From assembly GCF_036860695.1 (NCBI RefSeq), contig NZ_JAYKGJ010000001.1, forward strand, positions 744,001 to 808,000: 64,000 bases of DNA. The letters are read 5' to 3'. Made by a program: the position numbers and the translations under genes. The notes under the pieces were generated by a model. That model was not told the origin of the DNA, made no database searches, and was given only the letters and a program-made list of their open reading frames with translations. Below, piece after piece: positions 14,706 through 42,075 of this stretch (position 1 is the first letter of the stretch; each line of letters starts with the position of its first letter). The stretch comes from Rosettibacter firmus (lineage in GTDB: Bacteria; Bacteroidota; Ignavibacteria; Ignavibacteriales; Melioribacteraceae).

Positions 14706-14951
14706 AAGTAAAACTATTTTTTTTAATATTTAATATATAAAATGAGAAATAACAAAATCGACTACATTATAGCATAAGTTGAATTAATGTTATTGAATAA
14801 ATTCGAGTTTACAAAAATTATCTACTGGCAGAAAGGTTGTTTTTCAAAATAAAAAGTTTCTACGATTTTACTTATAGAAAGCCAATCTAAAAATTGATTT
14901 AATAGGCATTTCGATAGGTGATTAATTCTACAAAAATTAAATTTTTTATAT
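14706..14951. other. Intergenic stretch with no recognised feature
   Basis: AT-rich sequence between the acyltransferase start and the first tRNA-Glu remnant. I see no convincing ORF, RNA or repeat. The promoter of the acyltransferase gene should lie at its left end. Confidence 0.4.
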
Positions 14952-15029
14952 AACCCCAATGGGAATGTCTAGGAATTCCTTTGGGAGATCTCCCACTGGG
15001 AGAACCCGTACTTTTCACCTTGAAAGAGT
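14952..15029 (-). pseudogene. tRNA-Glu 3'-half remnant, copy 1 (most decayed)
   Basis: Matches the intact tRNA-Glu (15280-15351) from the acceptor 3' strand to the anticodon loop (CTTTCAA), with point changes (ACCCCAATGGG for ACCCCAACGGG). The T-loop is split by an insertion longer than in the other copies, with TCCC...GGGA palindromes in two versions. No 5' half follows, so it cannot make a tRNA. Confidence 0.8.
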
Positions 15030-15068
15030 AAATAATTTTTTTGGGGGAATTACTTAGAGTGGTATTGT

Positions 15069-15135
15069 GACCCCAACGGGAATCTTCCATAGGAATCCCT
15101 TCGGGAGAACCCTATTTTCACCTTGAAAGAGTGAT
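15069..15135 (-). pseudogene. tRNA-Glu 3'-half remnant, copy 2
   Basis: The last 15 bp and the segment down to the anticodon stem match the functional tRNA-Glu. The T-loop (GGGTTC|GATTCCC) is interrupted by a 22 nt insert at 15085-15106 made of two small hairpins (TCCCGAAGGGA and TTCCTATGGAA). One base is lost in the T-stem. It ends in the anticodon stem, where sequence diverges from the tRNA. Confidence 0.85.
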
Positions 15136-15174
15136 TTATTTTATCTTGGAATTATTATGAGATTCAGATATGGT

Positions 15175-15239
15175 GACCCCAACGGGAATCTTCCATAGGA
15201 ATCCCTTTGGGAGAACCCGTATTTTCACCTTGAAAGAGT
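15175..15239 (-). pseudogene. tRNA-Glu 3'-half remnant, copy 3
   Basis: As copy 2, with a perfect match to the real tRNA-Glu on both sides of a 22 nt T-loop insert at 15191-15212 (TCCCAAAGGGA plus TTCCTATGGAA). It is separated from the intact gene by a 40 bp spacer that also occurs, nearly identical, after copy 1. Confidence 0.88.
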
Positions 15240-15279
15240 AAATAATTTTTTTTGGGGGGAATTACTTAGAGTGGTATTG

Positions 15280-15351
15280 TGACCCCAACGGGAATCGAAC
15301 CCGTATTTTCACCTTGAAAGAGTGATGTCCTAACCGTTAGACGATGGGGCC
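15280..15351 (-). tRNA. tRNA-Glu (UUC)
   Basis: 72 nt, read on the minus strand. Acceptor GGCCCCA pairs with TGGGGTC; anticodon loop CTTTCAA gives anticodon TTC; T-arm ACGGGTTCGATTCCCGT is intact; discriminator A. CCA is not encoded. It is the last gene of a Pro-Arg-His-Glu cluster and the source of the three remnants downstream. Confidence 0.96.
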
Positions 15352-41465: not shown

Positions 41466-41539
41466 GGCGGTGTAGCCAAGTGGTCTAAGGCGAAGGTCTG
41501 CAAAACCTTTATTCGTCGGTTCGAATCCGACCGCCGCCT
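41466..41539 (+). tRNA. tRNA-Cys (GCA)
   Basis: 74 nt. Acceptor GGCGGTG/CGCCGCC (one T-G wobble), discriminator T; anticodon stem AAGGT/ACCTT with loop CTGCAAA (anticodon GCA); T-arm GTCGGTTCGAATCCGAC. Its 3' half is duplicated in decayed form about 280 bp downstream. Confidence 0.95.
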
Positions 41540-41559
41540 CTAACTTAGTTTTAATCCCC

Positions 41560-41865
41560 ATATTTTTTGTTTATGTTCTAAGGTCTCTTAAAGATAATAA
41601 ACGGTATATTGGTTTTACTGAAAATTTATCCCTGGGAATCCATCCCTTTGGGAGCAGACTCAAGGAACATAATAATGGCCTTGTTAAATCCACTCGCAGA
41701 CGCATCCCTCTTGAACTTATTTACTTCGAAACTTTCTCTTCAAAACATGATGCTCTCTTAAGAGAAAAATTTCTTAAATCTGGTCAAGGACGAACTTTTC
41801 TTAATTCCATTATCCAATCGAAGGTCTGCAACCCGCCTTCGGCGGGCGAATCCGACCGCCTTTAA
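41560..41865 (+). pseudogene. GIY-YIG nuclease-like gene, copy A: open frame without a usual start
   Basis: The frame reads FFVYVLRSLKDNKRYIGFTENL, an 8-residue extra piece (about 41629-41652, LGIHPFG), RLKEHNNGLVKSTRRRIPLELIYFETF, and REKFLKSGQGRTFLNS. This fits single-domain GIY-YIG (YhbQ/UvrC-like) proteins. There is no ATG/GTG/TTG at the expected site: an ATA at 41560 stands where copy B has ATG. The frame has no internal stop. Its C-terminus runs into a tRNA-Cys 3'-half copy. The 24 nt insertion keeps the frame and holds TCCCTTTGGGA, as in the tRNA-Glu remnants. Probably a pseudogene, but one start-codon mutation from a gene. Confidence 0.75.
41818..41860 (+). pseudogene. tRNA-Cys 3'-half remnant
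   Basis: TCGAAGGTCTGCAA matches the anticodon arm of tRNA-Cys, and CGAATCCGACCGCC its T-arm end. Between them the tRNA sequence is replaced by a perfect hairpin CCCGCC-TTC-GGCGGG. It is followed by about 20 bp of the tRNA's downstream flank. It overlaps the 3' end of GIY-YIG copy A. Confidence 0.8.
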
Positions 41866-41881
41866 CTTAGTTTTAATCCCC

Positions 41882-42075
41882 ATGTAATTTATTTACGTTT
41901 CTCAGATCGCTCAAAGACGCTATATTGTTTTCTACAGAAAACTTATCTCTGAAAAATCCATCCCATCGGGAACAGATTCTGGGAACATAATAATGATTTT
42001 TTTAAATCTACTCGGAGAGATCCCTCTTGAACTTGTTTTTATTAATTGATCATTTCTTCTAAAACTTAATATTGT
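41882..42075 (+). pseudogene. GIY-YIG nuclease-like gene, copy B (decayed, truncated)
   Basis: Nucleotide match to copy A from the shared flank TAATCCCCAT through the palindromic insert (CCATCCCATCGGGA) and CATAATAATG to CCCTCTTGAACTTG, with frameshifts and stops throughout. It has ATG at the place where copy A has ATA, but TAA follows at once. It shows that the tRNA-Cys 3' half plus GIY-YIG block was tandemly duplicated and that the palindromic insertion predates the duplication. Confidence 0.8.

Follow-up and report, generated by a model that had tools for sequence, protein, structure and literature searches.

Small GIY-YIG nuclease genes that abut tRNA genes in bacterial chromosomes are probably selfish cassettes, single-domain and SegB-like, each targeting tRNA genes of one isotype, and a decayed member of this kind lies in a 64,000-nucleotide stretch of the Rosettibacter firmus genome, hereafter called the window. 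Cleavage and mobility are what we infer from the arrangement of these genes and of the tRNA fragments that surround them. The cassettes apparently form a large, undescribed class, and no description of such a chromosomal class was found in the open literature searched.

Findings

The locus from which the analysis started is anchored by an intact tRNA-Cys(GCA) identified with ARAGORN (41466–41540, + strand) and continues on the same strand, in the order that the original prediction had given, with a GIY-YIG gene (copy A, 41560–41818; Pfam PF01541, E = 5e-11), a tRNA-Cys remnant (41819–41860) and a second, decayed GIY-YIG gene (copy B, approximately 41882–42047), the repeat unit having a spacing of 316–328 nt. 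Copy A is a probable pseudogene. Its frame is open from 41560, with the translation IFFVYVLRSLKDNKRYIGFTENL..., and does have ATA at the start position, as had been noticed, where relatives have ATG; it lacks a stop of its own and runs on into the tRNA-Cys remnant. It also contains a palindromic in-frame insert, SLGIHPFGS (27-nt core at 41629–41655, + strand), that is missing from the aligned homologues, with a related insert in copy B, which opens with ATG TAA (at 41882) and contains frameshifts. Because of the palindrome-bearing insert and the missing stop in copy A, both copies, judged by their sequence, are probably dead. An NCBIfam search with the window GIY-YIG protein gave no match. The tRNA fragment between the two copies had been described as a 3' half. 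Its start does lie in the anticodon arm, but the 3' half is not intact: the fragment consists of nt 26–38, a hairpin and nt 57–70, the hairpin CCCGCCTTCGGCGGG (41832–41846) standing in place of nt 39–56, a pattern with a chance expectation of 0.01 per 64 kb. The junction GCAA^hairpin^CGAATCC recurs in three other genomes (G002, G009 and G011). In one of these, the same-genus G002, two tandem hairpin-bearing tRNA-Cys copies at the Cys locus (L109, 2214–2402) reach the contig edge, and an intact tRNA-Cys was not detected in that stretch.

A similar locus elsewhere in the window consists of an intact tRNA-Glu(TTC) (15279–15351, − strand; ARAGORN) followed on its 3' side by three tandem tRNA-Glu(TTC) remnants (14951–15238, − strand). 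The parallel drawn earlier between the two loci is borne out to the extent that the anticodon arm is where each Glu remnant starts; at these remnants, however, a GIY-YIG gene was not seen, and the array reads, from its sequence, as a relic or a non-autonomous array. The T-loops of two remnants contain 22-nt double hairpins (15191–15212 and 15085–15106), and the third insert is degenerate. That the double hairpin might be a general genome repeat was considered and rejected for this genome, in which the exact pattern is limited to tRNA-like remnants and one-mismatch matches elsewhere are different sequences; across loci, double hairpins are 3.5 times denser near tRNAs, yet not exclusive to them. 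The identical 22-nt double hairpin also occurs in a tRNA-like remnant that follows a tRNA-Arg(ACG) of this genome (L260, 1353–1520; G000:C1, ~297,100), with no GIY-YIG gene nearby.

A PF01541 search of the Rosettibacter firmus genome returned nine places, including UvrC and a 560-aa protein, without which there remain seven small GIY-YIG genes in six clusters. Five of the six abut a same-strand tRNA gene (Leu-CAA, Ser-GCT, Glu-CTC, Pro-CGG and Cys), and the sixth falls in a separate UPF0213-like group. At Ser-GCT two tandem GIY-YIG copies are arranged around a Ser remnant, and at Glu-CTC a full pseudo-tRNA is followed by the GIY-YIG gene and then by the intact tRNA.

The same association is found well beyond this genome. 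ARAGORN was run around every small GIY-YIG gene listed for 20 relatives and around the majority of the ones listed from a partly hand-picked 60-genome phylum sample. Many of the sampled genomes are fragmented metagenome assemblies in which contig edges hide neighbours, and edge clusters were left out of the counts. Among the matches listed, 48 of 84 small GIY-YIG clusters in the order sample and 40/84 in the phylum sample have a tRNA or tmRNA gene at most 250 nt away, an arrangement for which chance gives approximately 0.004 per GIY-YIG gene. A further 33 linked clusters came from a query for which four Asn-linked genes of Ignavibacteria were aligned and which was scanned over genome contigs by protein pattern alone. 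When the 20 relatives and the phylum sample are combined with named genomes of Patescibacteria and Omnitrophota, every one of the 121 linked clusters shares the strand of its tRNA, from which it is mostly no more than 60 nt away. It had been asked whether related GIY-YIG genes are found preferentially at tRNAs, and these clusters answer that they are. A CPR-centred set of 14 genomes (chiefly Patescibacteria, besides a single genome each of Omnitrophota and Margulisbacteria), picked via matches of the Asn query and hence Asn-biased, gave 46 of 47 linked clusters on the same strand and one on the opposite strand, with 24 anticodons, and 23 unlinked clusters. The tRNAs at linked loci include those for Ala, Arg, Asn, Asp, Cys, Gln, Glu, Gly, Leu, Lys, Met, Phe, Pro, Ser and Val, and tmRNA occurs as well; with many isotypes and several phyla involved, the duplication is clearly not confined to this strain, a possibility that had been raised against the original prediction.

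The small GIY-YIG genes that are not linked to a tRNA belong mainly to two UPF0213/YhbQ-like groups and serve as an internal control; when the unlinked members were checked against other RNA genes, two were at tmRNA and the others at none. GIY-YIG genes were observed 3' of tmRNA genes at three loci (L035, 1124–1740; L088, 1550–2265; L174), so tmRNA may belong to the target class as well. One clade, marked by GYT...ESTKNRRP (L018, L055, L058, L061, L064, L065 and L067), is related to the Cys-linked genes and had no tRNA found adjoining it, and several of its members are at contig ends.

The nuclease genes follow the isotype of the adjoining tRNA. A tree of 93 genes can be labelled by isotype with 23 changes, compared with a mean of 52.3 for shuffled labels, and none of 200 shuffles was so low; when 96 linked genes were each compared with their nearest relative at a different locus, 67 of them matched it in amino-acid isotype, where 9.4 would be expected. 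The Asn query, although it consisted of a protein pattern alone, led to Patescibacteria genes directly upstream of tRNA-Asn(GTT), often with an overlap of a few bases with the tRNA 5' end. No fixed set of isotypes is kept within a lineage. In the gene tree the 25 unlinked UPF0213-type rows occupy their own starred branch, which contains no tRNA-linked row. The description of the window gene as YhbQ-like needs to be changed to one of superfamily level, because the tRNA-linked genes branch apart from the UPF0213/YhbQ-type genes and the latter adjoin almost no tRNA.

The tRNA-linked proteins are 80–100 aa long and consist of a single domain. Among 28 aligned members Y4, Y15, R25 and E61 are invariant and G17 nearly so. 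An AF2 model of 81 residues (pLDDT 93.8) is a bare GIY-YIG catalytic fold, to which the closest structures are the UPF0213 proteins 1zg2 and 1ywl, I-TevI (1ln0), UvrC domains and SLX1; the model includes no separate DNA-binding region and Pfam gave no further domain. By residues, PF01541 match and fold the tRNA-linked members belong to the GIY-YIG superfamily, the window copy being a damaged one. Between divergent members, where dS is measurable, dN/dS is 0.04–0.3, which indicates purifying selection, and two recent tandem pairs gave 0.47 and 0.72.

Two mirror-image layouts can be distinguished, one with the GIY-YIG gene downstream of the tRNA (70 loci) and one with the gene upstream (42 loci). 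In the downstream layout, 46 of 70 loci have a tRNA remnant on the far side of the gene, and 45 of these 46 remnants extend to the tRNA 3' end; in the upstream layout a remnant is present 5' of the gene at 18 of 42 loci, and all 18 begin at nt 1–2. The tRNA remnants expected to flank the GIY-YIG genes are thus present, and on the side predicted. No remnant across the gene was detected at 24/70 and 24/42 loci, respectively, and a reversed-tRNA control yielded none. Of 114 linked tRNAs, 70 have a remnant nearby, and of 58 unlinked tRNAs, 7 do (Fisher p = 2e-10); several of those seven are relics of the same kind. Remnants can outlast the nuclease, as in the window Glu array and at loci L109 and L119. 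Tandem arrays are common, for example one of three units of 317 and 323 bp. Two further arrays were observed: eight copies of a small GIY-YIG gene at approximately 364 bp per unit (L148, G071:C34:5500-11500), in a stretch in which a tRNA was not detected, and a tRNA-Val(TAC) followed by four remnants, spaced 124 nt apart, together with a truncated GIY-YIG gene (L096, 1354–1925, in G013).

Self-complementary inserts interrupt the loops of the tRNA remnants. Those of 3' remnants recur 17–18 nt before the 3' end of the tRNA, within the T-loop motif GGTTC^GAATC, at about 15 loci of many isotypes, and those of 5' remnants usually occupy the D-loop. The inserts often consist of two adjacent hairpins and measure 22, 30 or 54–60 nt; their sequences differ but the pairing is retained.

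An occupied and an empty site could be compared within one genus, at a tRNA-Ser(TGA)–tRNA-Ser(GCT) locus that is syntenic on both sides. In G035 the tRNA is directly followed by its terminator-like hairpin; in G030 the tRNA and this hairpin are followed by the GIY-YIG gene and a Ser remnant, after which the terminator-like hairpin occurs again; tRNA-Ser(GCT) is identical in the two (92/92). At the Cys locus of the same-genus G001, which has synteny on both sides and a tRNA-Cys identical to that of the window (75/75), a search recognised no GIY-YIG gene. G001 is no longer regarded as a pristine empty site, because the intergenic stretch there shows a weak resemblance to a decayed GIY-YIG gene (98, against a shuffle 95th percentile of 88.5) and may contain a relic. 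Recoding of the resident tRNA against cutting was looked for at the Ser-GCT and Cys loci and was absent from both; altered tRNA sequence is confined to the remnants, where it lies in loops.

Interpretation and alternatives

The original prediction of a small tRNA-targeting mobile cassette gains strong support from the tRNA association, the shared strand, the isotype match, the remnants and the empty site in G035, while for mobility and cutting it depends on what we infer. The scheme that we propose takes tRNA-gene cutting, repair and amplification from the precedent of SegB, by analogy. The nuclease would act on its cognate tRNA gene, where the likeliest place for the cut is the T-loop, at the conserved sequence GGTTC^GAATC, or, in cassettes of the upstream type, the D-loop. 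Recombination via short tRNA homology would then insert, or tandemly amplify, a unit of tRNA part and nuclease beside the intact tRNA; the surplus tRNA copy would be broken by the loop-located hairpins, and nuclease and remnants may subsequently decay as they have in the window. The main difficulty for homing is that the tRNAs at occupied and empty sites are identical, because the resident target of a homing enzyme is normally protected.

The main rival is that the GIY-YIG protein is an RNase that acts on the cognate tRNA molecule, as a toxin or a stress or anti-phage effector, with the remnants serving as RNA decoys or antidotes. Isotype fidelity and the strict same-strand layout would fit co-expression with the cognate tRNA, and the preservation of two hairpins despite sequence change, at one T-loop position in many isotypes, would be understandable in a decoy. 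We nevertheless consider this unlikely, as a remnant is undetected across the gene at the 24 downstream-layout and 24 upstream-layout loci given above, remnants persist where the nuclease is gone, the nucleases decay freely, and the nearest structures include DNA nucleases (I-TevI, UvrC and SLX1). A second proposal that joins the two views is, in our estimation, possible and tentatively held: either the genes are isotype-specific cleave-and-rescue selfish elements that home into tRNA loops and leave hairpin-blocked remnants, in which case they would carry or duplicate the tRNA and the host would stay viable, or they encode a tRNA-directed nuclease with decoy RNAs.

Explanations that dispense with a tRNA-targeting selfish element fare worse. 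The units are tandem, and homologous recombination is easy at tRNA repeats, so that a host gene near a tRNA might simply have been duplicated by unequal crossing-over without any mobility; the recurrence of the arrangement at many isotypes and in several phyla, in isotype-matched lineages, and the existence of an empty site make this highly improbable. No more credit can be given to the idea that the tRNA is a hotspot for integrase islands and the GIY-YIG gene a passenger. The 3' ends of tRNA genes are well-known integration sites with 3'-end duplications, but the units here are about 300–400 bp long and lack an integrase, many insertions are upstream of the tRNA with 5' remnants, and the nuclease itself is isotype-matched. 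Purifying selection and wide distribution would suit a domesticated host nuclease that repairs or maintains tRNA genes, yet presence is patchy, GIY-YIG genes number up to 24 per genome, truncations and stops are frequent and lineages have no fixed isotype set, and we regard domestication as very improbable.

If the reading as tRNA-targeting cassettes is correct, a large family of minimal mobile nucleases, many of them in a single genome, has its standing target in the tRNA genes of Bacteroidota, Ignavibacteria, Patescibacteria and Omnitrophota. Recognition of one tRNA isotype by approximately 80 residues would make these proteins unusually small natural gene-specific nucleases. They would also explain in a new way how tRNA genes are duplicated and how tRNA pseudogenes arise, might cause errors in annotation, and would offer a naturally occurring system for studying homing that spares an essential gene.

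Comparison with known systems

Tyrosine integrase islands likewise use the tRNA gene as a site and are accompanied by a 3'-end duplication. Unlike them, the cassettes measure 0.3–0.4 kb, in the units examined contain no integrase and nothing besides the nuclease, and have a mirror-image upstream type with 5' remnants. No clear phage vector for the cassettes emerged, only weak matches (five in one search and two in another). The fold of the catalytic domain is shared with I-TevI, an intron-encoded GIY-YIG homing endonuclease (1ln0); in contrast to I-TevI, the cassettes have neither an intron nor a C-terminal DNA-binding region, and the tRNA stays intact through duplication rather than splicing. 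With UPF0213/YhbQ the cassette nuclease has fold and size in common, whereas genes of that type branch apart and, in the genomes sampled, almost none is at a tRNA.

The closest precedent is SegB, a free-standing homing endonuclease of the GIY-YIG type from phages T4 and T6. It cleaves within tRNA genes at the motif RAWTSGAAC; through its action a tRNA+segB unit whose gene ends are truncated is amplified in tandem, and it co-localises with tRNA genes within 1 kb without isotype preference (PMC13096335, Nat Commun 2026). By inspection, the reverse complement of this motif, GTTCSAWTY, is the T-loop. The cassettes resemble SegB in having a GIY-YIG gene near tRNA genes and outside introns, present as a stand-alone ORF adjoining the tRNA, in their tandem tRNA+nuclease units and in the gene-free allele of a relative (G035). 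An altered resident target and a separate DNA-binding region are the SegB-like features that they do not display, and because the resident tRNA is unaltered and no such region is present we regard the cassettes as SegB-like in their working and as standing outside the SegB family. They differ from the phage enzyme, moreover, in being located in bacterial chromosomes, in consisting of one domain of 80–100 aa, and in abutting a single tRNA on its own strand, faithful to its isotype and accompanied by hairpin-bearing remnants of it.
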